From Hydrogenovibrio halophilus DSM 15072 (GTDB lineage Bacteria; Pseudomonadota; Gammaproteobacteria; Thiomicrospirales; Thiomicrospiraceae), in the NCBI RefSeq assembly GCF_000384235.1, contig NZ_KB913033.1, positions 1,247,164-1,311,163 of the forward strand: a stretch of 64,000 nucleotides of DNA, read 5' to 3'. The position numbers and the translations under genes were made by a program. The notes below the pieces were generated by a model, which saw only the letters and a list, made by a program, of their open reading frames with translations, did not search any database and was not told the origin of the DNA. Positions 41,761 through 56,376 of the stretch are shown piece by piece; position 1 is the first letter of the stretch; each line of letters begins with the position of its first letter.

Positions 41761-42219
41761 ACCAGGCCTGGTGGTTTTGTTGATGATTCATCCAAGTTAA
41801 TGGTTGTGCTCGCTCTTTTTTACAGCGCAAGAGCAGATGTGTTCATTTTTTCTCGGCTTACCCCTGCGGGCGCCGAGTTCTTCGTTTGCTTGTGCAAAAA
41901 ACGAACCAAAAAAGCACACCCAGCACACGCTTTCTGTGCATTCTAAGCCCTGCCACAGGGCCCTTGCGAACTCGCTTCGCTCGGACAGCGCAAGGGACAT
42001 TTCCTGTGGCAAGACCAAGAAGCACAACGAAATCTTTGTGATGGGACCCTGACAACCCCAGCGGTTGATCACCGGTTTTTTCGGTTGTTATTGGGTTTTG
42101 GTATCGCGATCATAAATTTTGTCATCCCGACCTCAGCGGAGGGATCTTTGGAGTCCGGCTCCGTCTTTAAAGACCCTTCGGCTTCGCTCAGGGGGACAGT
42201 CTTTTTGACCAGGCCTGGT
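41761..42219 (+). repeat. Intergenic hairpin repeat, copy 1 (bounded by the iterated palindrome)
   Basis: A 459-bp unit that begins and ends with exact ACCAGGCCTGGT copies (41761 and 42208). It contains a small CTCGGC/GCCGAG hairpin near 41852-41877, a large hairpin at 41941-42021 (CCTGCCACAGG and CCCTTGCG pair with CGCAAGGG and CCTGTGGCAAG, apex ACTCGCTTCGCTC), and a REPIN-like pair at 42120-42200. Small open frames inside it (for example one containing CKKRTKKAHPAH) recur in other copies but look incidental. Confidence 0.85.
42208..42219. repeat. Iterated palindrome ACCAGGCCTGGT (exact)
   Basis: Right boundary of hairpin repeat copy 1, followed by GGTTTTGG; 44 bp before the tRNA-Leu promoter. 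Confidence 0.9.
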
Positions 42220-42262
42220 GGTTTTGGATGTGTTTTTGGCAGGAGATCGTTGGAATTTTTGC

Positions 42263-42291
42263 TTGACAAGGCAAGGCGGTTCACGGATAAT
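42263..42291 (+). promoter_or_regulatory. Sigma-70 promoter of tRNA-Leu (CAG)
   Basis: TTGACA (42263-42268) and GATAAT (42286-42291), 17-bp spacer. Confidence 0.85.
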
Positions 42292-42309
42292 TCGCGGCAT
42301 CCAATTCAA

Positions 42310-42396
42310 GCGGATGTGGCGGAATTGGTAGACGCGCAGGGTTCAGGTCTCTGTGGGGTAAAACCCGTGGGAGTTCAAGTCTCCCCATCCGCACCA
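42310..42396 (+). tRNA. tRNA-Leu (CAG)
   Basis: 87-nt class II tRNA with encoded CCA. GCGGATG acceptor pairs with CATCCGC; anticodon stem CAGGG/CTCTG and loop TTCAGGT give CAG. The variable arm is long, as expected for Leu. Confidence 0.95.
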
Positions 42397-42404
42397 ACAG
42401 CAAA

Positions 42405-42434
42405 CCCCAGTGATGGATGTCACTGGGGTTTTTT
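42405..42434 (+). terminator. Intrinsic terminator of tRNA-Leu
   Basis: CCCCAGTGA and TCACTGGGG form a perfect 9-bp stem with a six-base loop, followed by TTTTTT. Confidence 0.92.
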
Positions 42435-42446
42435 ACTTTCTGGCTT

Positions 42447-42776
42447 TCATGCTTCGGTGGAAACAGTCGCTCCAGCTTGGTTTGCGGCTTTGTTGACGCG
42501 CTCAACAAGCCGGTCTGTTGGTTTGTAGCTTGCGCGTTCAATTTTGCCTATATAGGCCTGGGACACACCCAAACGTTCTGCCAGTTGCACCTGAGTCAGA
42601 TTGGCCTTGATTCGCGCGCTCTTGATGGGATTATCAATATAGTCGGCCACATCAAAGGCAATCAGTTCATCTTCAGGGGTGGCATCCTGCGTGACCAGTC
42701 GTTGGTATTCTTCCCACGGAATAACCGCATACTCAGGTTTTTTGCCTTCCGGGTCAAAAATGATTTGTGCATTCAT
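42447..42776 (-). CDS. XRE-family antitoxin
   Basis: A 109-residue protein: N-terminal half (IIFDPEGKKPEYAVIPWEEYQRL) resembling type II antitoxins, C-terminal helix-turn-helix (LTQVQLAERLGVSQAYIGKIER). It follows a RelE-like toxin gene, and its ATG would overlap the stop of the unshifted toxin (TGAATG). It is intact although the toxin is frameshifted. Confidence 0.85.
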   Translation of the reverse strand: MNAQIIFDPEGKKPEYAVIPWEEYQRLVTQDATPEDELIAFDVADYIDNPIKSARIKANLTQVQLAERLGVSQAYIGKIERASYKPTDRLVERVNKAANQAGATVSTEA

Positions 42777-43035
42777 TGGTAACTGTCCTTTCTGTGTCCC
42801 ATTTTCTCAATCGCGATCACCCTCAGCTGATCTTCCGGTCAAATAAAATTCGATATTGCTCTACTCGCAACCTGTACTGTGCTGCCGGGTGATTCTTTAG
42901 CGGTTTGACGTCCAGCGCTTTATTGTTCGGGTTGTTCCCCAATTGCTGAATCGACTCTGCAATGCGCTCTCGCTGCCTGGCCTGCAATGCTTTCAGTGCC
43001 TTGGCCGCTTTGCGTCGGATCTTGATTTGGTACAT
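42773..43035 (-). pseudogene. RelE/ParE-type toxin with a single-base frameshift
   Basis: The first 70 residues (MYQIKIRRKAAKALKALQ...QYRLRVEQYRILFDRK) are a normal RelE-family start, then a premature TGA. The missing end is intact in the next frame: EDQLRVIAIEKMGHRKDSYQ, ending where the antitoxin begins. One inserted base at the CGGAAG near 42837 would restore a full-length toxin of about 87 residues. This is either a real inactivating deletion or a sequencing error. Confidence 0.8.
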
Positions 43036-43131
43036 AGGTTATATTGTAAAGGTTATAAAACCGTTCTGAAACGTTGTTTTCAGTTTTGTGTTTGAAAGAG
43101 CGTGTGCTTGGACTTTGAATCGGATGGGTTT

Positions 43132-44730
43132 TTATGTCTGCTCGTCGGGCTCAGACGGGCCGAAACTGATTTGGTCTCGGCCCTGGTCTTTGGCCTGGTA
43201 GAGGGCGAGGTCGGCGCGTTTTAGGACGTTGTTGAGGGATTCTTCCGGTTGACGTTCGATGCAACCGATGCTGGTGGTGATTTGGATGTTCTGATCGGAA
43301 ATGCGCTTGTGACGCAAGGTCTCGAGTAAACGTTCTGCCAGGATGGCGGCCTGGTCGCGAGGGGTGTTGGGCAGAAACATAATGAATTCTTCGCCGCCCA
43401 TGCGCCCGGCCAGATCGGATTTGCGTGCGTGTTCGGTCAGGTGGTGGCCGAACTCCGCGATCACTTTGTCGCCATAACTGTGACCATAGGTGTCGTTGAC
43501 CTGTTTGAAGCGATCCAGATCCAGTGACAGCACGCTGACGGGTTGTTGCTCACGATCCGCCAGGTCAAACAGCCATTCGGCTTTCTGTTCCACCCCGCGC
43601 CGGTTCAGAATGTGGGTCAGTTCATCGTGGATGGCAATGCGATTGATTTTCAGGAAGATTTCAAACAGCCAGATCAACAGCATCAATACCAGAATCAGGG
43701 AGGTGAAAAAGAGTCCCTGAAGCTGCATGGTTTGCAGAACGGTTTTGACGTGCCCGTTCGGATAGAGGTAATGCACCAGATACATTTGGTCATCGATCAC
43801 CGGCATCACGATTTTGTCGGGGTTGAATCCATGGTCGTGCTGTCTGGCCAGCTCATGTAACGGTTTTTTCAGCGCGATTTTGTCGCCTGGGGTGAAATCG
43901 TAGGGCGCAGAAACGATCTGACGTTCATTATTGACCAGTAGCGTGGCACCATCCAACCGGTTTTCCAGTGTTCTTCGGATGGAGGTGAGCGTGTGATCCA
44001 GCGAGACCACGCCGTAGAAGACATCGTTCACATACACCGGCAGCGAAAGCGAAATCATATAGCCCTTGCCCGCCGCATCAAGATAAATGGGCGAAATGCG
44101 GAACTGGCGCTGTGGGTTGTTCTGGGGCGTGGCAATGGTCCAGAAAGGCTTTTCGTACAGGGATTCGGAAAACTGGAACGCTTTGGGATCAATGGCCGGT
44201 GCGTAGAGTATGAAGTGGTTTTTGGAGGTGTAATAGGACCAGGCAAATTCAATGTGGTTGATGGGATCGGTGTCCAGATCGATGTCCAGAGCCAGTGCCG
44301 CATCAATCTCTTGCCAGATTTCGGGTGTGAGCGCATCGAAATGGCCTGATCCGGAGATGTTGGCTTCCAGGCAGTGATCCAGATCGGTCAGGTCATAGGG
44401 CGACAAACCCCAGGTCTGGTTGTATTGCACAAACCGGTCTGAGCAGTAGGTTTGCAAATACCCTTTTTGGGCCAGTTCGATGTTTTTCTGCATCTGCTCG
44501 GTCATGCTGTAAGCCAGCATGTAACTCAAGCCGATTTGACGTTGGGCAGAGGCACTTTTTTCACTGAGTTCGGCACGAATTTGCTGGTAGGCGTCGTGCT
44601 TGGCCGCGTTAAACAACCAGAACATGCCCATGACCCAGCAGAGGATCAACGCCCATTGCATGTAGGGTTTGATTTTGGGGAAATTACGGGAAAAGGTACA
44701 GTTTCGGTTGAAAAAGCGATGTAGAGTCAT
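43132..44730 (-). CDS. Membrane diguanylate cyclase with Cache-type sensor
   Basis: About 532 residues: membrane helix near residues 24-42 (YMQWALILCWVMGMFWLF), large periplasmic dCache-like sensor domain (about 43-330; YYTSKNHFILYAPAIDP, GYMISLSLPVYVNDVFYGVVSLD), second helix (LFFTSLILVLMLLIWLFEIFL) and a GGDEF domain with RMGGEEF and HDELTHILNRRGVE. A functional cyclase is expected. Start at the ATG at 44730; an open frame 15 codons longer is not needed. Confidence 0.9.
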   Translation of the reverse strand: MTLHRFFNRNCTFSRNFPKIKPYMQWALILCWVMGMFWLFNAAKHDAYQQIRAELSEKSASAQRQIGLSYMLAYSMTEQMQKNIELAQKGYLQTYCSDRFVQYNQTWGLSPYDLTDLDHCLEANISGSGHFDALTPEIWQEIDAALALDIDLDTDPINHIEFAWSYYTSKNHFILYAPAIDPKAFQFSESLYEKPFWTIATPQNNPQRQFRISPIYLDAAGKGYMISLSLPVYVNDVFYGVVSLDHTLTSIRRTLENRLDGATLLVNNERQIVSAPYDFTPGDKIALKKPLHELARQHDHGFNPDKIVMPVIDDQMYLVHYLYPNGHVKTVLQTMQLQGLFFTSLILVLMLLIWLFEIFLKINRIAIHDELTHILNRRGVEQKAEWLFDLADREQQPVSVLSLDLDRFKQVNDTYGHSYGDKVIAEFGHHLTEHARKSDLAGRMGGEEFIMFLPNTPRDQAAILAERLLETLRHKRISDQNIQITTSIGCIERQPEESLNNVLKRADLALYQAKDQGRDQISFGPSEPDEQT

Positions 44731-44844
44731 AGTTGGCCTGTGTAACGGGCGCTTATGGGCAACCCATGATGTCACTTTACTGATTTGTTGGCGGCTTTAG
44801 AAATAAAAGTTTCTAATCCCAAGCGCGAATTTTGCTTGGGGTGC

Positions 44845-47800
44845 TCAGCGCCGCAGCAAATCGGCAAAGGCCTCGGCCGACAGAGGCCGGGCGAAATAAT
44901 AACCCTGATAAAAGTCGGCGCCGTGTTCGGCCAGGAAATCTCTCTGCTCCAGGGTTTCAACCCCTTCGGCCAACACTTTCATGTCCAACGAATGGCCCAT
45001 GGCGATGATGGCATCAATGATCTGTTCGGTTTGCAGGTTTTGGCCAATGCCATCAATAAAGGTTTTGTCGATTTTCAGAATGTCCAATGGCAAGTTACGC
45101 AAGTAGGCCAACGAGCTGTAACCGGTGCCGAAATCGTCCATGGCGATGGAAATGCCCATGGCCTGAAGTTGCGCCAGACGTCTGGAAGCGCGTTCCTGCG
45201 AGCGCATGAGCGAGCTTTCGGTGATTTCAATTTCGAGCACGTGAGGCGGCAACAAGGTTTGCGCCAGAGTGACTTCAATGGTTTTGACCACATTGGCATC
45301 CTGAAACTGACGGCTGGAGAGGTTGATGGCCAGACGTCCAATGTCCAGGCCCTGGTCCAGCCATTGCCGTCCTTGCCGGCAAACGTTTTTCAAAACCCAG
45401 TCGCCGATGTCAATGATCAGGCCGGTTTCTTCCGCCAGACCAATAAACTGGTCGGGGGCGATGGTGCCACGTTCCGGGTCCTGCCATCGAAGCAGGGCTT
45501 CGGCACCGATGATTTTGCCCGTGTCGAGCGCAATCTGTGGTTGGTACATCATTTCCAGTTCGTCGTTTTTCAGCGCCTGCTTCAGGCGGGTTTCCAGCCC
45601 GATCCGATGCTGCGCCAGGTCGGTCAGTTCGCGGGTGTAATAGGTGTAGCGTTCATTGTGTTGGTCGCCCTTGATTTTGTGCATGGCCGCATCGGCATTC
45701 TGAAGCAGTGCCTGCGCCGTCTTTCCGTGAAACGGGTAAAGACTGATGCCAATGCTGGCGCTGGTGGTGATTTCGGTGTGGTCGGCGAGCTGGAAGCTTT
45801 CCGAGATGCTCTGGATTAACGCTTCGGCCAGACGGGCGGCGTCTTCCTGGTGTTTGAGGTCCGGCATGACCACAACGAATTCGTCGGCACCAAACCGTGC
45901 CAGCAACTGTTCTTTGTGCAACTCACGTTTCAAGCGCTTGGTCACGGTTTGCAGCAGTTCGTCGCCAATGTCGTGGCCGAAGCTTTCGTTGACGTACTTG
46001 AAGCGGTCCAGATCCAGCAGCAAAACGGCCAGGTGTTTGTGTTCGGTCTTGTGCCGGGCCAGCAAGCCGTCAAGTTGATCGGTCAATAACGTTCGGTTGG
46101 CCAGACCGGTCAGGGCATCGTGGTGCGACAGATAATCCAACGCGGCTTCGGAATTCTTCATGCTAGAAATGTCGCTGAACACCCCAACGTAATAGCGCAC
46201 GTCATCCTGTTTGTTGCGAACCTGGGTGATGCCCAGAAGTTCGGGATAACGTTCGCCGTTCTTGCGTCGATCCCAGATTTCCCCTTGCCAGTAACCTTTG
46301 GTGGTAAGTTGATGCCACAACCGGTCATAAAAAGCCTTGGCGTGTTCACCCGATTTCAAAAAGGCCGGGGTCTGGCCTTTGATTTCTTCAAGGGTATAGC
46401 CGGTAATGCGTTCAAACGCCGCGTTCACATTAATGATGCGCTGTTTGTCATCGGTGATGACAATGCCTTCCTGAGTGGCATCGTAAACAATCTGAGCCTG
46501 TTCCAATCGGTTTTTTTGTTCCACCTCAAGGGTCATGTCCTGAAGACTGCCGACGATTTCGATTTGTCCATTGGGCAGATGGAAAACCCGAAATTGATCT
46601 CGAATGTTCATATAGGAATGATCAGGGTGCCAGAAACGGTATTCCTGAACATGGTCCTTGTGGTCGTCCGTGCGGGTAAGTACGTCCAGAAAGCATTGCG
46701 TTACTTCTATGCGGTCTTCCGGGTGCAGGCGGTTTTTCCACCATTCGATCAGGTTGTCCGGGTCCGGGGCTTCGCCCAGCAGGCTTTCCGCATTGGGGCT
46801 GATGTATTCGGCCTGCAGATTGTCCGGCGCGCCGGTAAACACATAGAGCACAGTGGGACTGATGCTCAAAAAGTGGTTGAGGCGGTTGCTGGATACCGCC
46901 AGTTGCAATTGGTAGACCCGTTCCTGCTGGCGCCACAACAGCCAGATGGCATAACCCAGCGCACTCATAATAATCAGGCTGATCAGAGCCACCCAAATTA
47001 CAATCTCGTACAGTTTCTGCACCAGAAATTCGCGTTTCACCCCGGCGACCAGAATCCAGTCGGCGCTGTCAAACGGTTGCAGTGCAACAAGACCTCTTTC
47101 GCCGTCGCAGAAAGAGGGTTGCAAGGTGGTTGCTGACATGGCTTGCAGAGCTGGCTGCAGTGCCTTTACCAGGCAGGGATGGTGCAAAAAGTTGCGGGCG
47201 TCGTTGCGCTCAGGGAACAGGGGCGAATAGTCTTTGTCATCGGAACGGTGCATCAATGCCAACTGCATTGGGTGTGGGCGGTGCTCTTTTTGTGCGAACA
47301 ATGGGTAAATGAATTGTTTGGGTCCGGCGTGAATCAGAATAAAGCCCTGATTGTGGGATGCGCCATTGGCCAGGGATTGAATCGGGATGACCCAGTCAAG
47401 ATGGGTGTGGTTCGTTTTGGGTTCAAAATAAAATGGGGTGGTCTGTATCTGGCCGGAAGCGGCCGCTTTGTTCAGAACCCGTTTGAGTTCCGGCAGATCG
47501 TCGATGCTTGACTGGTTTGTGCGACCGAATGCCATCTGTGTCTGAAAATTCCGGTCGAGTAGTACCACCCCTTCGTAGTGGTAAAAACGGTACAAATCCT
47601 GCAAGCGCTGGCGAATCAGAGCGCTTGACTGTTCGGAGGGGTTGGTTTGAGAGAGGAAGCGATTCAGGTGAGCGTCAAACCGTTTGTCATTCTGAAGTAC
47701 CTGGGCATCGGCCTGGCGTTCCTGATACCAGCGGTTGAGCTGGTGAGCCTTGTTTTGCACCAATATCTGCAAATGGTCATGCGCCTTGTTCTCCAATACC

Positions 47801-48156
47801 GGAGTTTGCATAAACACAATCAACCCGGCGATCAGCGGAATAAACCCGACAATGCCCGCCAGTGTTAGAATCAGGCCCCGGTTCAGAGGCTTGTGATCCT
47901 GTTTGATCGGTTGAGTGGGTGGCAGCCAGTAGGTCAGCAGGAGAAAAAGCAGGCCAGCTGTGACCAGCACAAACGCCAGGCCCTTCACGGTCTGGCTCCA
48001 TTCGCCGAAAGCGGTGTCAAGGATTTGGTTTGACACCAGCCGGTCCGACACCAGAATCCAGATGCTGGCGATCAGCGCATAAATGCCAGCGAGTCTCAGG
48101 GCTTTCCATTTGTGCGGTTTTTCAGCTGCAGCAGAGGCGTGGTTGGGTCGTTTCAT
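44845..48156 (-). CDS. Large membrane PAS-PAS-GGDEF-EAL protein
   Basis: A 1103-residue protein. Three membrane segments lie near residues 20-120, a periplasmic sensor domain of about 280 residues follows, then a further helix (IVIWVALISLIIMSALGYAIWLLW, near 405). Two PAS domains come next (about 445-560 and 570-690, the second with ITGYTLEEIKGQTPAFLKSGEH), then GGDEF and EAL. The GGDEF site is RFGADEF, so cyclase activity may be lost; the EAL site (GAEALLRW, EITESSLMR, MDDFGTGYSSLAY, LAEGVET) looks complete, suggesting a phosphodiesterase. It lies downstream of no obvious partner. Confidence 0.9.
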   Translation of the reverse strand: MKRPNHASAAAEKPHKWKALRLAGIYALIASIWILVSDRLVSNQILDTAFGEWSQTVKGLAFVLVTAGLLFLLLTYWLPPTQPIKQDHKPLNRGLILTLAGIVGFIPLIAGLIVFMQTPVLENKAHDHLQILVQNKAHQLNRWYQERQADAQVLQNDKRFDAHLNRFLSQTNPSEQSSALIRQRLQDLYRFYHYEGVVLLDRNFQTQMAFGRTNQSSIDDLPELKRVLNKAAASGQIQTTPFYFEPKTNHTHLDWVIPIQSLANGASHNQGFILIHAGPKQFIYPLFAQKEHRPHPMQLALMHRSDDKDYSPLFPERNDARNFLHHPCLVKALQPALQAMSATTLQPSFCDGERGLVALQPFDSADWILVAGVKREFLVQKLYEIVIWVALISLIIMSALGYAIWLLWRQQERVYQLQLAVSSNRLNHFLSISPTVLYVFTGAPDNLQAEYISPNAESLLGEAPDPDNLIEWWKNRLHPEDRIEVTQCFLDVLTRTDDHKDHVQEYRFWHPDHSYMNIRDQFRVFHLPNGQIEIVGSLQDMTLEVEQKNRLEQAQIVYDATQEGIVITDDKQRIINVNAAFERITGYTLEEIKGQTPAFLKSGEHAKAFYDRLWHQLTTKGYWQGEIWDRRKNGERYPELLGITQVRNKQDDVRYYVGVFSDISSMKNSEAALDYLSHHDALTGLANRTLLTDQLDGLLARHKTEHKHLAVLLLDLDRFKYVNESFGHDIGDELLQTVTKRLKRELHKEQLLARFGADEFVVVMPDLKHQEDAARLAEALIQSISESFQLADHTEITTSASIGISLYPFHGKTAQALLQNADAAMHKIKGDQHNERYTYYTRELTDLAQHRIGLETRLKQALKNDELEMMYQPQIALDTGKIIGAEALLRWQDPERGTIAPDQFIGLAEETGLIIDIGDWVLKNVCRQGRQWLDQGLDIGRLAINLSSRQFQDANVVKTIEVTLAQTLLPPHVLEIEITESSLMRSQERASRRLAQLQAMGISIAMDDFGTGYSSLAYLRNLPLDILKIDKTFIDGIGQNLQTEQIIDAIIAMGHSLDMKVLAEGVETLEQRDFLAEHGADFYQGYYFARPLSAEAFADLLRR

Positions 48157-48337
48157 TCAGTGAACTCGGTAACCTTTTATATCTTTCTCGTCCCTGACTC
48201 GGCAAAGGAGTCATATCCATTTATCTTACCCATTTTTTGCGCATTTTGAGGAGGGATTGCGCCAATCTTTGAAATGGATCATCGTATAATCATAAAATCA
48301 TGATGAAATAAGGTGGACATCTCAACAGGAGACGAGG

Positions 48338-49219
48338 ATGAAACAGTTAAAAATCTGGATGACCGGGGCGCTGATGGCCCTGAGTGCGGGGGCCTTTGCC
48401 GCAGAAGGTGAGGCCATTCACGTCAAAAACGCCGGGTTTGCCACGCCGGAATCGATGGAGTATGTCGCCGGTCAGGACGTGTATCTGGTGGCCAATATCA
48501 ACGGCAGTCCGTTTGCCAAAGACGACAATGGTTTTATTTCCAAAGTCAGCCCAGAGGGCAAAGTGCTGGATTTGAAATGGATCGATGGGGCCAGCAACCA
48601 GATTCATTTGAATGCGCCCAAAGGCATGGTGGCGACGGAGAAATTCCTGTTTGTGGCCGACATTGACCGTGTGCATCAGTTCGACATCGAAACCGGTCAG
48701 CAGATTGCGAGCATGATCTTTTCCGGAGTGAATTTCCTCAATGGTCTGGCGCTGGCGGAGGAAGGCGGTTTGTATGTGACCGACAGTGGCGTGGCCCCCG
48801 GGTTCAAACCGGCTGGCACCGACGCGGTGTATCACCTGACCTTTGACGGCAAAATCACGCCGATCTATCAGGACAGTGAGATGGGTGTGCCCAATGGCGT
48901 GGTCTCCGATGGCGGTGGTCTGGTGGTGGTCACCATCTTTTCCGGCGAAGCCTTTCGTCTGGATGCCAATGGCACGCGCACAGAGCTGCCCAAGCCGCCG
49001 CACAACCGTCTTGATGGCTTGTTGAATATGGGCGAGGGGCGCTTTATTGTCTCGAGCTGGACCGGCGAAGCCATTTATGAAATCGATGCCGGAGAAGGCA
49101 CCGTGACCGAGTTGTTCGGTGGCTTGACCTCACCGGCCGACTTGGGGCTGGACACCAAACGCCAACGTTTGCTGATTCCCCTGTTCCAAAAAGACGCGCT
49201 GGTGATTCAGCCGCTCTGA
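48338..49219 (+). CDS. Secreted SMP-30/gluconolactonase-like beta-propeller protein
   Basis: A 293-residue protein with a signal peptide (MKQLKIWMTGALMALSAGAFAA) and repeated propeller blades (MEYVAGQDVYLVANINGSPF, KGMVATEKFLFVADIDRVHQFD, NGLALAEEGGLYVTDS, NGVVSDGGGLVVVTIF). It matches SMP-30/LRE or NHL-type periplasmic proteins; the substrate is unknown. A TATAAT at about 48285 may be its -10. Confidence 0.8.
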   Translation: MKQLKIWMTGALMALSAGAFAAEGEAIHVKNAGFATPESMEYVAGQDVYLVANINGSPFAKDDNGFISKVSPEGKVLDLKWIDGASNQIHLNAPKGMVATEKFLFVADIDRVHQFDIETGQQIASMIFSGVNFLNGLALAEEGGLYVTDSGVAPGFKPAGTDAVYHLTFDGKITPIYQDSEMGVPNGVVSDGGGLVVVTIFSGEAFRLDANGTRTELPKPPHNRLDGLLNMGEGRFIVSSWTGEAIYEIDAGEGTVTELFGGLTSPADLGLDTKRQRLLIPLFQKDALVIQPL

Positions 49220-49239
49220 ATCCAGTTTGAGCTGGTTGG

Positions 49240-49676
49240 ACGGGCTTAAAAATTATCAAGCCTGGTGATCTTTGATGATTGCTTTGATTAGGTTTTACGC
49301 TGTGCTTGAACGTTGATGGCTGTGCGATCCCGGAGATGTTCATTTTTTACTTGTGTAAAAAACGAACCAAAAAGCACACCCAGCAGAAAATTTCTGTGCC
49401 ACTAGGGCTTGTCGCTGGCCGCTTGCGAACTCGCTTCGCTCAGACAGGCGCAAGCGGTGATCCAGCGCCTTCACCCAGTGTCACGACGAAATTTTCTGAT
49501 GGGACCCTGACAACCTCAGCGGTTGATCTCAGATTTTCTGGTTGGTATTGGGTCTTGTCGTCGCGATCAAAAGCCTGTCATCCCGACCGAAGCGGAGGGA
49601 TCTTTGGAGTCCGGCTCCGTCTTTAAAGACCCTTCCGCTTCGCTCAGGGTGACAGTGTATTTTGACCAGGCCTGGT
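49240..49676 (+). repeat. Intergenic hairpin repeat, copy 3 (variant stem)
   Basis: Starts near a degenerate palindrome (ATCAAGCCTGGT, 49256) and ends at the exact palindrome at 49665. Its central hairpin (49400-49490) uses CGCTGG and CCGCTTGCG pairing with CGCAAGCGG and CCAGCG, in place of the CCACAGG/CCCTTGCG stem of copies 1 and 2, with the same ACTCGCTTCGCTC apex. A REPIN-like pair is at 49576-49655. Confidence 0.85.
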
Positions 49677-50118
49677 GGTTTTGTTGATGATTCTGCCAAG
49701 TTAATGGTTGTGCTCGCTCTTTTTTGCAGCGCAAGAGCAGATGTGTTCATTTTTTCTCGGCTTACCCCTGCGGGCGCCGAGTTCTTCGTTTACTTGTGTA
49801 AAAAACGAACCAAAAAAGCACACCCAGCACACGTTTCCTGTGCGTTCTAGGCCTTGCCACAGGGCCCTTGCGAACTCGCTTCGCTCGGACAGCGCAAGGG
49901 GCATTTCCTGTGGCAAGGCCAAGAAGCACGACGAAATCTTTGTGATGGGACCCTGACAACCCCAGCGGTTGATCACCGGTTTTTTCGGTTGGTATTGGGT
50001 TTTGGTATCGCAATCAGAAATTTTGTCATCCCGACCGAAGCGGAGGGATCTTTGGCATTCGGCGCCATGTTCAAAGACCCTTCGGCTTCGCTCAGGGGGA
50101 CAATCGATTTTATTCACG
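49665..50118 (+). repeat. Intergenic hairpin repeat, copy 2
   Basis: Begins with the exact palindrome at 49665 and is nearly identical to copy 1 (41761). Hairpin at 49845-49925 with GGCCTTGCCACAGG pairing with CCTGTGGCAAGGCC; REPIN-like pair at 50024-50103. The usual right-hand palindrome is missing and the CopD-like gene starts 20 bp later. Confidence 0.85.
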
Positions 50119-50137
50119 TTAAAAAAAGGACAATACA

Positions 50138-50599
50138 ATGATCAGCGCGTTTTGGTTGAGTTTGCATGTGATTGCGGCCGTGATCTGGGTTGGCGGCATG
50201 TTTTTTGCCTATCGGGTGTTTCGTCCGGCTGCGGCGGCCACTCTGGAACCGCCTGAGCGGTTGCGTTTGTGGCGGCAGATTTTCCGGCGATTTTTCTTTT
50301 TTGTCTGGTTGAGCATTCTGTTTCTGTTTGTCAGTGGCTACGCCGATTTTTTCTGGCGCTTTGGCGGCCATGGCCCGCATTACCTTTTGACCATGATCGG
50401 CATTGGCTGGGTGATGCTGGCCCTGTTTGCCACCCTGTACTTTGTGCTTTACAAGCGTTTTGCCCGCCAGGTGGATGCCGAAGAGTTTGCCGAGGCCGGA
50501 AAGACCCTGAACACCCGGATTCGTCCGGTGATTGCGGTGAATCTGACCTTGGGGATGATTGCTTTTGTACTGGGCGCGGCCGGACCGTTTATTCAGTGA
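50138..50599 (+). CDS. CopD-like small membrane protein
   Basis: A 153-residue protein with four membrane helices (FWLSLHVIAAVIWVGGMFFAY, FFFFVWLSILFLFVSGYADFFW, YLLTMIGIGWVMLALFATLYF, IAVNLTLGMIAFVLGAAGPF) and the histidine-bearing LHVIAAVIWVGG of the CopD family. A link to copper or heme handling is possible but unproven. It lies 12 bp before the APH-fold gene. Confidence 0.8.
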   Translation: MISAFWLSLHVIAAVIWVGGMFFAYRVFRPAAAATLEPPERLRLWRQIFRRFFFFVWLSILFLFVSGYADFFWRFGGHGPHYLLTMIGIGWVMLALFATLYFVLYKRFARQVDAEEFAEAGKTLNTRIRPVIAVNLTLGMIAFVLGAAGPFIQ

Positions 50600-50611
50600 C
50601 GTTGACGCGTT

Positions 50612-51595
50612 TTGCAGACCGATAAACACCATCAGGCCTGGTTAAAACGGTTGGGCGATCATTTCGCTCAGCCGGTTCGGCTGGCTCCTTTGCCACAGGC
50701 GTTTGCAGACAGTTCGCACAGCCTTTACCGCGTCTGGCTGGGCAAGGGCGTGTCTTCGATGCAGTCTCCCGATTTTGTGCTCAAGAGGCCCAATCCGGCC
50801 GCGATTGATCAGGCCGATTTCTGGCAGGGCTTTGCGGCGGTTTTTGGCAGCGGTTTTGCCCAGCAAACGCGGAATTTGCCAGCGCTGTATCAGCGGGCAC
50901 AGGCCCTGACGCCTCTGGCGGTGCCCAAGCTGGAAGCGGTGTTTGCCACGGCGCAAGGGGAAAGCGTCTCGCTGACCCGTTTTGTGCCCGGGCAGCAGCC
51001 GGATGTGGTCTCCATCAGTGCTTTGTTGCCGGAGCTGGCACGGCATTTTGCGGCCATGCATCAGACCAGTGTGGCAGCGATGCCTGACTGGCCGCAGTGT
51101 GTCTGTGATTGGTTACGCCGCTTTTTTCAGCAACCGGCTCAGGCCGAAAACCTGATGGCGTTGCGGGCCTTTGGTGCACAACACGGGCTGGGGCAGGAGC
51201 TGTCGGCCATTCTGACGCAGGCTCACCGCGTCTTGCAGAACACGTCTTCGGATTGGGGCTGGTCGCTGCCCGATTTGCGCTGGGATCAGTTTCTGTTGGG
51301 CCCGAGCCAGAGCGCCGACGAGGCCATGGTGCTGACGCTGGTGGATTGGGATGCGTTGACGGCCGCGCCGATCGTGCTGGACTGGGTCCTCTTGGAATAC
51401 CTGTTTCGTTCTGATCAGGCACGCGCATTCGTCGCAGAATATCGGCTGACAGGGGCTGACCTACCAGCGGATTTGCACTCGGTCCGCTGGGTGTATCGTT
51501 TGCTGCTGTTCAGCTTGAATGTGCTGGGTGAGGGTTCGCTGCATGACTGGCTTCAGCGTCCCGCGCACTTTGACGCCATTGATAAAAGCCAATGA
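50612..51595 (+). CDS. APH-fold phosphotransferase, possible thiamine kinase
   Basis: A 327-residue protein of the aminoglycoside phosphotransferase/choline kinase superfamily. LTRFVPGQQPD, LARHFAAMHQTS and the metal-site VDWDALTAAPIVLDW fit the fold, but the usual HGDLHxxN catalytic loop reads PDLRWDQFLLG, with no clear Asn. Because it abuts a thiamine transport set it could be a thiamine kinase, though this is context only. TTG start; its 3' end overlaps the convergent PnuC-like gene by 86 bp. A near-copy of the palindrome (50631) encodes HQAW. Confidence 0.65.
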   Translation: MQTDKHHQAWLKRLGDHFAQPVRLAPLPQAFADSSHSLYRVWLGKGVSSMQSPDFVLKRPNPAAIDQADFWQGFAAVFGSGFAQQTRNLPALYQRAQALTPLAVPKLEAVFATAQGESVSLTRFVPGQQPDVVSISALLPELARHFAAMHQTSVAAMPDWPQCVCDWLRRFFQQPAQAENLMALRAFGAQHGLGQELSAILTQAHRVLQNTSSDWGWSLPDLRWDQFLLGPSQSADEAMVLTLVDWDALTAAPIVLDWVLLEYLFRSDQARAFVAEYRLTGADLPADLHSVRWVYRLLLFSLNVLGEGSLHDWLQRPAHFDAIDKSQ

Positions 51596-52196
51596 TGGCC
51601 ATCCCGAAATAGACCGCAAACATGGCGACGGTAAAGTAAAAGCCGTTGTCCCAATACAGCCACATCGCCGCCGAGTTGATCACCAGCCAATAAAGCCAGT
51701 TTTCCAGCACCTTGCGCGCCATCAGATAGGTGTTGAGCATGGAAAACACCGTGACTCCCGCATCCAGCCAGGGCGCACGCGACCATTCATAGTATTGCAT
51801 CAGGCTGGCCATCAACGCGGTCAAAACCACGCCTGCGCCTAAAAACAAGGCATGTTGCCCGCCTGTCAGTCGATGCACTCTGAGCGGGGGGTTGTCGGTT
51901 GGCCAACCCTGTTCCGTCGTTGTTGCCGTCGTTTTTTCCGGCGTTCTGGTCGACCAGAGCCAGAAACCGTACACAGCCATCACCAGATAATAAGCGTTGA
52001 GCAGGGCCTGCATCGGCAGCTGCCCGTCCCAAAACAGCCAGGAGTAAATCAGGGTGCTGAAAAAAGCACAAGGCCAGGCCCAGAGGGATTCCCGGATCGC
52101 CAACACGATATAGGCCAGCCCCAGCAGGGTCGCCAGCGCTTCCCAGCCGGAAAGCGTCTGCACTTGTTGCCAGACCTGTGTCAGCGTGTCGATCAT
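51510..52196 (-). CDS. pnuT: PnuC-family vitamin transporter, probably thiamine (PnuT)
   Basis: A 228-residue membrane protein with about seven helices; GLAYIVLAIRESLWAWPCAF, LLNAYYLVMAVYGFWLW and WLYWLVINSAAMWLYWDNGF are PnuC-family landmarks. PnuC carries nicotinamide riboside, while the PnuT branch carries thiamine. The adjacent thiamine-binding YkoF-like gene, TPP riboswitch and TonB receptor favour thiamine. Start overlaps the YkoF-like stop (ATGA). Confidence 0.82.
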   Translation of the reverse strand: MIDTLTQVWQQVQTLSGWEALATLLGLAYIVLAIRESLWAWPCAFFSTLIYSWLFWDGQLPMQALLNAYYLVMAVYGFWLWSTRTPEKTTATTTEQGWPTDNPPLRVHRLTGGQHALFLGAGVVLTALMASLMQYYEWSRAPWLDAGVTVFSMLNTYLMARKVLENWLYWLVINSAAMWLYWDNGFYFTVAMFAVYFGMAIIGFYQWRQSARDAEASHAANPHPAHSS

Positions 52197-52468
52197 TCGG
52201 CCGGGTCCGAATCAAAGCCACAACGGTTGGTGCCCACCAGTTTCATCACAAAAACGGTGTGCGGGTTTTCCGTGAACACGGCTTCCAGCTCCGCGGTCAT
52301 GGCGCTCATCACCGTATGGTAATCGCCAAAGACCTGGGTGCTGAGGGTATTGCAGGCCACCTGCACCCCGTCGAGGGTTTTCAGACGGTCGATGAAGGTT
52401 TGGATCGGGCGCAGGTAATCGTCGCTGAGCGGGTACATGCTGATGTCGATTGAGACTTGGAGTGCCAT
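52193..52468 (-). CDS. YkoF-like thiamine-binding protein
   Basis: About 91 residues of the YkoF/MTH1187 fold: VSIDISMYPLSDDYLRPIQTFIDRL, VQVACNTLSTQVFGDYHTVMSAM, HTVFVMKLVGTNRCGF. B. subtilis YkoF binds hydroxymethylpyrimidine or thiamine. ATG at 52468 follows AAGGAAAAACAA. It is translationally coupled to the PnuT-like gene. Some 950 bp of repeats separate it from the riboswitch-controlled genes upstream. Confidence 0.8.
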   Translation of the reverse strand: MALQVSIDISMYPLSDDYLRPIQTFIDRLKTLDGVQVACNTLSTQVFGDYHTVMSAMTAELEAVFTENPHTVFVMKLVGTNRCGFDSDPAE

Positions 52469-52515
52469 TTGTTTTTCCTTTTTTTGGTTGGGTCTTGTCG
52501 TCGCGATCAAAAGCC

Positions 52516-52616
52516 TGTCATCCCGGGCCGAAGCGGAGGGATCTTTGGAGTTCGGCTCCGTCTTTTAAGACCCTTCGGCTTCGCTCAGGGTGACAGTCTT
52601 TTTGACCAGGCCTAGT
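52516..52616. repeat. REPIN-like pair plus palindrome variant (ACCAGGCCTAGT)
   Basis: A REPIN-like pair at 52516-52596 followed by an 11/12 palindrome at 52605-52616. It probably represents the right end of another, truncated hairpin repeat. Confidence 0.8.
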
Positions 52617-53021
52617 TGTTTTGTTGCTTCGATCAAGTTTGCTATTGTGCTTTTGATTTATGTTAGTGCGATCCTAGGGATATTCATTTTTTACTTGTGT
52701 AAAAAACGAACCAAAAAAGCACACCCAGCAGAAAATTTCTGTGCCACTAGGGCTTGTCGCTGGCCGCTTGCGAACTCGCTTCGCTCAGACAGGCGCAAGC
52801 GGTAATCCAGCGCCTTCACCCAGTGTCACGACGAAATTTTCTGATGGGACCCTGACAACCCCAGCGGTTAATCGCCGATTTGTCCGCTGGTATTGGGTCT
52901 TGTGATCACGACCAGAAGTCTGTCATCCTGACCGAAGCGGAGGGATCTTTTAATCCCTGCGCCATCTCCAAAGACCCTTCGGCTTCGCTCAGGGTGACAG
53001 TGTATTTTTACCAGGCCTGGT
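52605..53021 (+). repeat. Intergenic hairpin repeat, copy 4 (variant stem)
   Basis: Same stem type as copy 3 (CGCTGG/CCAGCG with CCGCTTGCG/CGCAAGCGG; hairpin at 52744-52830), with a REPIN-like pair at 52921-53000 and the exact palindrome at 53010-53021. Confidence 0.85.
53010..53021. repeat. Iterated palindrome ACCAGGCCTGGT (exact)
   Basis: Right boundary of hairpin repeat copy 4; also the junction with the inverted copy 5. Confidence 0.9.
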
Positions 53022-53029
53022 TGTTTTCA

Positions 53030-53270
53030 AACAGAACAAGCAAAACGGTTCATCGCCAATCGTGCCAAAAGCAATGCATGGCCCAATCCCCATCACAAAG
53101 ATTTCGTTGTGCTTCTTAGTCCTGCCACAGGAAATGTCCCTTGCGCCTGTTTGAGCGAAGCGAGTTCGCAAGGGCCCTGTGGCAGGGCTTAGAATGCACA
53201 GAAAGCGTGTGCTGGGTGTGCTTTTTTGGTTCGTTTTTTGCACAAGCAAAAAATGAACACATCTGGGCTT
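53030..53270 (-). repeat. Intergenic hairpin repeat, copy 5 (inverted, partial)
   Basis: The core of copies 1 and 2 in opposite orientation, with the longest stem seen: CTAAG-(C)-CCTGCCACAGG pairing with CCTGTGGCAGG-(A)-CTAAG (hairpin about 53113-53195). It lacks the REPIN portion on its own side. Confidence 0.82.
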
Positions 53271-53324: not shown

Positions 53325-53404
53325 TGTCATCCCGACCGAAGCGGAGGGATCTTTGGAGTCCGGCTCCGTCTTTCAAGACCCTTCGGCTGCGCTCAGGGTG
53401 ACAG
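53325..53404. repeat. REPIN-like pair before the methyltransferase gene end
   Basis: Same paired halves as elsewhere, followed by the exact palindrome at 53413. Confidence 0.82.
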
Positions 53405-53412
53405 TCTTTTTG

Positions 53413-56164: not shown

Positions 56165-56269
56165 TGTGTATTCCTTTTTTCGATGGATCACGAAAAAGGA
56201 ACAGGGAAATGCAGAGTCTGCGTCTGTGTAAGCTGGAAATCCACTGAGACAGAGATGGGCTGCAGCCTG

Positions 56270-56356
56270 TTCCTACGCCAGTATTAACTGGATCAGGTTT
56301 AAAGGGTTCCCACTCAATGATGGATCTCAGGCCGTTACGGCCACCCCTCGGCTTGT
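56270..56356 (-). ncRNA. TPP (thi-box) riboswitch
   Basis: Reading the minus strand: GAGGGGTGGCC (P2/J2-3 start), GGCCTGAGATC, GGGAACCCTTTAAACCTGATC, CAGTTAATACTGGCGTAGGAA, which match the thi-box consensus GGGGTGC..CTGAGA..ACCC-(T)TT-AACCTGATC-(T)GG-TAATACC-(A)GCGTAGGGAA closely. It ends about 106 nt before the TonB receptor ATG, so thiamine pyrophosphate should reduce receptor expression. Attenuation versus translational control cannot be decided. Confidence 0.93.
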
Positions 56357-56376
56357 GCGTTGTGAAACGCATTTGA

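Follow-up and report, generated by a model that had tools for sequence, protein, structure and literature searches.

What does an intergenic repeat preserve if the letters of its stem change in pairs from copy to copy? The question is raised by a stretch of 64,000 bases from Hydrogenovibrio halophilus DSM 15072 (the window; positions 1247164-1311163 on the only contig of a genome that totals 2,356,686 bases), in which an earlier note, made from the letters alone, had described a new repeat family with a covarying long hairpin. Its observation is partly confirmed and its interpretation partly supported: the covarying element is real, much wider in distribution than had been seen, and without description in the sources searched, while the edges of the element had been drawn too wide and one corner of its distribution had been taken for the whole. 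Reduced to its shared parts, the repeat comprises a 5' arm and an imperfect hairpin of about 140 nt with a constant tip. As a tentative explanation, plausible though somewhat short of probable, we suggest that this long imperfect hairpin is kept for its shape as one single strand, with single-stranded DNA (ssDNA) likelier than RNA, and that it has been spread by units resembling miniature inverted-repeat transposable elements (MITEs).

The hairpin and its paired changes

The 5' arm of each window copy holds a short A/T-rich hairpin, GTTC or ATTC...TTT...AAAAAAC-GAAC. It is followed by the linker CCAAAAA(A)GCACACCC and by the long imperfect hairpin, which has a long interrupted stem, a foot of the form CACACCC...GATGGG and, on the strand as read, the tip GCGAACTCGCTTCGCTC(A/G)(A/G)ACA. 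The cores measure 140-142 nt and terminate in GATGGG, downstream of which the sequence varies from copy to copy. All five copies claimed are present near the places assigned to them, four on the forward strand and one on the reverse. Copy 1 has its arm (GTTC...GAAC, with an extra CTCGGC..GCCGAG hairpin within) at 41841-41906 and its core, recognised by cmsearch (147.9 bits) and by folding, at 41904-42044, with the tip at 41969-41987. The arm and core of copy 2 lie at 49338-49367 and 49364-49503 (129.7 bits, also folded), those of copy 3 at 49745-49810, again with an inner CTCGGC..GCCGAG hairpin, and 49808-49948 (150.8 bits, DNA fold z-score -6.2), and those of copy 4 at 52682-52711 and 52709-52848 (134 bits, z -6.3), all on the forward strand. 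Copy 5 is inverted, tail to tail with copy 4, its core occupying 53090-53231 (151 bits, z -6.0) and its arm 53229-53258 on the reverse strand. When both strands of three of the five copies were folded as DNA, z-scores ran from -5.6 to -6.4, and none of 200 dinucleotide shuffles folded equally well.

A structure-blind alignment was made of 19 copies from six genomes, chosen by DNA similarity, and a structure of 24 pairs was derived from the same alignment. Both sides change at 17 of these pairs, whereas shuffling gave a mean of 9.0, with none of 500 shuffles reaching 17, and sliding the partner left 2-8. A covariance model built from this alignment and run on 79 sources returned 114 matches at E<=0.01; in these copies, whose alignment is fitted to the structure, both sides vary at all 24 pairs, and the share of paired cells is 87.2%, versus 33-47% when slid. 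A tree-aware test, in the style of R-scape but in our own implementation, started from the 105 matches no shorter than 130 nt, reduced these to 51 by thinning and, after MAFFT alignment, set their G-test scores against those of 60 null alignments evolved on the tree. With this model-found input, which leans to the structure, nine pairs reached E<=0.05, five of them on one helix diagonal and three on two others; the ninth, columns 24-127 near the foot, is poorly paired (18/45). Covariation survives the shuffling, sliding and tree-based controls alike, which supports the view that the structure of the hairpin is kept rather than its letters. The lack of significant covariation with more copies, which the earlier note had named as a refuting outcome, did not arise.

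The details of the pairing had been read less exactly. Two stem types do exist, but the labels of two copies had been swapped: CCACAGG/CCTGTGG (type I) belongs to the copies at 41761, 49665 and 53030, that is copies 1, 3 and 5, and CGCTGG/CCAGCG (type II) to those at 49240 and 52605, copies 2 and 4. The compensating difference between CCTTGCC/GGCAAGG and CCTGCC/GGCAGG is likewise present, but distinguishes the copies at 49665 and 53030 rather than the pair that had been named.

Taken from the complement of the strand as read, here called the bottom strand, the tip has the form TGTYYGA-GC(GNA)GC-GAGTT. A census of 103 distinct model-found copies, with loci fetched by the tip pattern excluded, gave the loop C(GNA)G in 77, C(GNNA)G in 6, another loop in 14 and missing anchor words in 6; the training tips of the model were TTCG or TTTG, so that the rest of the tip was favoured by the search and the free N was not. 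By eye, three of the six tips without anchors are still GNA. The N of the GNA loop was A in 38 copies, T in 20, C in 18 and G in 1. A looser census of 150 hairpins, many of them selected by the TTCG pattern, gave 124 GNA loops, 6 GNNA and 20 others. In a search that permitted one mismatch at any position of the 22-nt tip pattern, 22 of the 33 places listed carry a mismatch, always at positions 1-3, which lie in the stem, or at N. Loops of the GNA and GNNA kinds with at least two G-C pairs are described in PMC4686876 as extraordinarily stable DNA mini-hairpins (GCGAAGC, Tm 78 C). The bottom-strand tip obeys this d(GCGNAGC)/GNNA loop rule in 83 of the 103 copies; the cases described in that text are short synthetic DNAs, whereas here the cap sits on a natural long hairpin.

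Below the tip, the top stem is mostly 8-10 bp long and is followed by an internal loop that is longer on its 3' side, commonly by 4 nt (a bulge of 4-5 nt, some 9 bp below the tip). By a measure that requires clean stems, at which most loci drop out, the 3' side was the longer in 26 of 26 measurable copies from the host's bacterial family (64 tried) and in 23 of 27 measurable loci of the pan-bacterial set described below (76 tried).

Spread, mobility and genomic setting

The family is by no means confined to the window's genome, as had been supposed. With a 187-base piece, BLAST gave nine matches in the window's genome (G000) and nine in the genome G005, some of them partial, and the covariance model matched 26 of 62 genomes of the host's family at E<=1e-4, with a maximum of 42 copies in G053. 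Across the host's class the tip pattern with at most one mismatch occurs in 9 of 369 genomes, including the window's own, its backward control being 0 throughout; the covariance-model search recovered 4 of 369, an underestimate, as eight candidates were scored per genome. When one genome per species was scanned for exact matches to the tip pattern, 92 stretches emerged; the 80 that were listed contain the 79 distinct loci of the pan-bacterial set. Their records come from many phyla, the titles naming Bacteroidetes, Lachnospiraceae and other Clostridia, Gastranaerophilales, Acidobacteria, Patescibacteria, Coriobacteriaceae, Variovorax, Comamonas and others; many are metagenome bins, in which individual taxon labels may be wrong.

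These distant loci share the pairing and not the letters. Of 45 positions in the 5' arm, a median of 25 find a partner across the tip, versus 6.5 with shuffled arms; at least 20 pair in 57 of the 79 loci and fewer than 15 in 15. In 43 loci none of 60 shuffles matched the observed number of pairs, and the energy z-score lies below -2 in 52. The 5' arms of different loci have a median identity of 27%, the level of unrelated sequences. One locus, L193, lies inside an open reading frame (ORF), has few pairs and looks like a chance match. At ten others (L197, L225, L231, L241, L243, L246, L187, L188, L236 and L176) the flanks beyond the shared hairpin resemble, by eye, inverted repeats in locus-unique letters, as if the pairing had been extended into host sequence.

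Identity with a known annotated element was not found at the hairpin: Rfam 15 gave no match over the gathering score at the window hairpins, and a search of 961 bases with an E-value threshold gave weak miRNA matches only, far below gathering scores. Among the 80 named pan-bacterial loci, 19 were compared with Rfam and likewise had no match at the tip, the one match obtained lying away from it. Viral contigs gave no match to either the long or the general tip pattern, and plasmids gave no BLAST match to one 188-base copy; phage and E. coli collections lay outside these searches. A search of the open-access literature, which is not proof of absence, found no description of such a tip, such a structure or such a Thiomicrospira repeat.

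Signs of mobility are clearest in G053. There, 20 stretches hold 21 copies whose alignment extends for about 390 bp, the unit having a median length of 393 bp in 17 copies. Terminal inverted repeats (TIRs), TGTAAAA...TTAATCnGACAG, are present at both ends in 14 of the 21 copies, one left end being misplaced, and in 17 under looser end patterns. Direct repeats of at least 5 nt, AT-rich target duplications, flank 10 of 17 copies and measure 7 nt in six of these; re-paired flanks gave 1.9 on average, and none of 2000 tries reached 10. Such MITE features, TIRs and target-site duplication, were seen in G053 only.

The earlier note had also proposed a check for insertion polymorphism, which is found at one site, L031. 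Here 628 bp with the hairpin lie between aligned blocks that are separated by 108 bp in G005 and 111 bp in G006, both without it, and by other sequence in G009 and G002; the exact insertion junction is not readable in this comparison. By eye, this site also carries a terminator-like hairpin with a T-run, distinct from the element and present in G005 too, which lacks the element. The type I hairpins in G005 share 88-92% identity with window copy 1, and neighbouring blocks 67-85%; copying between repeats could also be the cause of this higher identity.

With ORFs called by length only, and a few copies possibly counted twice, 113 rows from the family comprise 56 between convergent genes, 47 between co-directional genes, 3 between divergent genes and 7 undecided. 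In the pan-bacterial set the corresponding figures are 18, 24 and 3, against background gaps of 35, 76 and 28, with a further 21 loci inside long ORFs and 18 at edges. No orientation preference towards the flanking genes was found among co-directional copies without ORF overlap, 21 pointing with them and 23 against. Many of the listed family places are inverted pairs with their 3' sides facing and core gaps of about 55-180 bp, the gap between window copies 4 and 5 being 241 bp. Such pairs were seen in G042, G050, G068, G048, G046, G013 and G001, as well as at 52709-53231 of the window.

Acting strand and competing explanations

In a perfect hairpin neither strand is more stable than the other, and differences between them must arise from loops and imperfect pairs. 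The tip was replaced by As before folding when the strands were compared. Under RNA energies the bottom strand then had the better fold in 85 of 88 copies from the family and in 64 of 77 loci of the pan-bacterial set, and under DNA energies in 79 of 88 and 68 of 77, counts that come from related copies and are not independent trials. The bottom strand is thus probably the acting strand. The lean to ssDNA over RNA comes from the GNA/GNNA tip and from the lack of a preferred direction towards genes, since RNA read through from neighbouring genes would be expected to show one.

We suggest that the repeat would belong to a widespread class of long imperfect hairpins retained for their shape as a single strand, with the bottom strand acting. 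The retained parts would be the capped tip, the top stem of about 8-10 bp and the asymmetric 4-5-nt bulge below it, the stem letters being free as long as they pair. Such a hairpin may act as ssDNA exposed in replication, repair or DNA uptake, where it could be bound by a putative DNA-processing protein, and its copies would have spread as non-autonomous MITE-like units with the aid of a putative enzyme. If this is true, repeats that are usually described genome by genome would gain one structural grammar, with tip and bulge common to many phyla and the stems free. It would also offer a concrete target for pull-down experiments and make action as ssDNA or as RNA testable, together with the question of why the repeats lie downstream of genes and are so rare between divergent ones.

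Several results count against this explanation. One of the three window copies folded as DNA favours the top strand (-38.3 vs -37.5 kcal/mol), the other two favouring the bottom. As scored, 20 of the 103 tips in the census fall outside the GNA/GNNA rule, and the isolated 19-nt tip is not predicted to be stable with the DNA parameters used. G-U pairs outside the tip make up 8.5% of RNA-folded pairs on the bottom strand versus 3.1% on the top in the family, and 7.2% versus 4.0% in the pan-bacterial set; these data do not decide for DNA, and show a top strand poor in wobble pairs. The positions had hinted at a replication-strand bias, but none could be established, and the argument makes no use of one. 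Neither an enzyme nor an autonomous partner was found, the 61 TIR places of G053 (at most two mismatches) including no opposed pair 1-3 kb apart. Finally, six sites are common to G000 and G005 with homologous sequence on both sides, and movement in the window's genus is seen at one site.

The nearest rival, which we regard as possible though on the unlikely side, is a structured, protein-binding RNA transcribed from the bottom strand, its transcript ended in the window's genus by a U-run after the hairpin base. In the window copies the bottom strand reads as the hairpin followed by GTGTGCTTTTTTGG. The advantage of the bottom strand with the tip masked is also greater under RNA energies (mean -6.5 kcal/mol) than with DNA (-1.9), and four of the six GNNA loops (GTAA three times, GAAA once) satisfy GNRA. 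The larger share of G-U pairs on the bottom strand likewise speaks for RNA, and a reading in which such pairs are absent was rejected for that strand. Controls place this share in perspective: shuffled hairpins gave 8.5% and 10.1%, and 30 candidate 6S RNAs of the same family (found in 33 of 58 genomes at E<=0.001, only 2 over the cut-off) gave 12.2% in sense and 11.3% in antisense. As both 6S strands have similar shares, the measure is not a clean marker of RNA.

Against an RNA, the commonest tip is a GNA triloop and not a GNRA tetraloop, and the variants GTTA and GCCA are not GNRA. Among the 2154 cells of the 20 best aligned pairs, four poorly aligned pairs of the 24 being dropped, 1996 are Watson-Crick, 16 G.T, 46 A.C and 96 other, versus 1030, 227, 263 and 634 expected if the two sides were independent. 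The A.C cells, which would be wobble pairs on the bottom strand, are thus depleted about as strongly as other mismatches. A simple scan of window positions 49200-50160, limited to loops of 3-8 nt, found no terminator-like site, and the absence of an orientation preference, noted above, also tells against an RNA.

The ssDNA explanation can be taken further, to a pan-bacterial class of hairpins with a constant cap (possible tandem G-A pairs and a GNA/GNNA loop) and a constant bulge on stems that are otherwise free, recognised by a machine common to all these phyla and repeatedly picked up by small mobile units. The machine might act, for example, in replication restart, priming or ssDNA repair. 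We consider this broader form doubtful.

It is also conceivable, though unlikely, that the arms are kept complementary mainly by mutation, with template switching correcting quasi-palindromes and the tip aiding the fold-back of DNA; covariation would then require no functional selection. Complementarity that runs by eye into locus-unique flanks at several Bacteroidetes and Firmicutes loci would fit this process, as would the nearly strict Watson-Crick pairing at aligned positions. Template switching should, however, erase the bulge and mismatches, yet an asymmetric bulge in a fixed place is kept wherever it could be measured, and the asymmetry between the strands is not expected from it.

A cruciform of both strands, acting as a chromosome landmark or a bidirectional terminator, is very unlikely. 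The gene setting agrees with it, as divergent genes flank only 3, and convergent genes 56, of the 106 family copies for which both neighbours were called. Against it, most copies have one strand that is the more stable, and the L031 site already has its separate terminator-like hairpin. The earlier note had proposed that the structure acts as RNA or as extruded DNA; the second of these, in the cruciform sense, thus loses ground, and the first keeps the standing given to it above.

Movement by a RAYT (repetitive extragenic palindrome-associated tyrosine transposase, of the Y1/HUH type) acting on an ssDNA hairpin is hardly credible: the strand-specific, imperfect and bulged hairpin resembles repetitive extragenic palindromes (REPs) as described in PMC8266576, and copies occur in inverted pairs, but Y1_Tnp (PF01797, RAYT) has no match in G000 or G005, with nine element matches each, its presence across the 62 family genomes is unrelated to the element (16 of 26 carriers, 19 of 36 non-carriers, Fisher p 0.61), the feet of the window hairpins have no GTAG or CGTC tag, and the G053 unit has TIRs and target duplications.

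Neighbouring repeats and known systems

Two parts of the layout first proposed for the family prove to be neighbours. The palindrome ACCAGGCCTGGT, which had been placed at its borders, is a 12-bp sequence that the genome contains 515 times without mismatch, versus 0 for the reversed control, and with at most one mismatch it occurs at 21 places in the window versus 0.18 expected (for example 4532, 6025, 10897, 17609, 27050 and 60124), 10 of them within ORFs of at least 150 amino acids. It is found in 41 of the 62 family genomes, with up to 718 copies and again a reversed control of 0. Such numbers, with many copies inside ORFs, rule it out as an element border. Its letters had no match in the open-access literature; a role in uptake, in methylation or in the nucleoid is conceivable. 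As a palindrome iterated 515 times, separate from the hairpin, it resembles HIP1, GCGATCGC, described from cyanobacteria in PMC4390886; a term search of that text for AGGCCT found none.

The REPIN-like pair of hairpin halves (TGTCATCCCGAC...GGGGGACAG), REPIN denoting paired REPs, had been taken for an integral part of the repeat. It matches many genome places without the giant hairpin, and a GATGGGACCCTGACAAC tail follows only some hairpin copies and has five places in the genome. Because they vary between copies or occur alone, the pair and the sequence after GATGGG are neighbours and not parts of the element. By sequence matches the pair lies in the window at 42120-42199, 49576-49655, 50024-50102, 52516-52596 (upstream of copy 4), 52921-53000 and 53325-53405. 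A REPIN-like repeat (TGTCATCCCGACCGAAGCGG...CGGCTTCGCTCAGGGTGACA) is in places tandem, with a spacing of 86-88 bp (G000, 1985503-1985966), in a genome without a Y1/RAYT match. The small hairpin CTCGGCTTACCCCTGCGGGCGCCGAG within the 5' arm of some copies (window 41852-41877 and 49756-49781) also occurs at six other genome places, in matches without the giant hairpin.

The tip rule C(GNA)G holds in 32 of 36 right halves of the REPIN-like pair in the window's genome (CTTCGC 29, CTGCGC 2, CTACGC 1) and in 55 of 62 left-type halves, a count that overlaps the first. Since most of these halves obey the same rule as the long hairpin, such a cap may apply to bacterial palindromic repeats in general.

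The element is a kind of intergenic palindromic repeat that lacks the REP features for which it was tested and shows those of MITEs in a single relative. Integron attC sites, too, form hairpins of ssDNA in which stem letters are free and some unpaired bases conserved; their conserved boxes lie at the foot, whereas the constant part of the present element is its tip. With REPs and REPINs it has in common a dispersed intergenic palindromic repeat, often in inverted pairs, and a strand-specific imperfect hairpin with a bulge, the latter as in PMC8266576. REPs are, however, 20-40 bp long with stems of 5-13 bp and a GTAG or CGTC tag, according to PMC3733652, whereas the present core has about 140 nt, a far longer interrupted stem and a constant tip, and lacks the tag. 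The G053 unit, of about 390 bp with TIRs and AT-rich target duplications of about 7 bp, is MITE-like, but the hairpin reaches far beyond any one TIR family and the G053 TIRs have no autonomous partner.

Elsewhere in the window, a TPP riboswitch was recognised at 56252-56358 on the reverse strand (72.5 bits).

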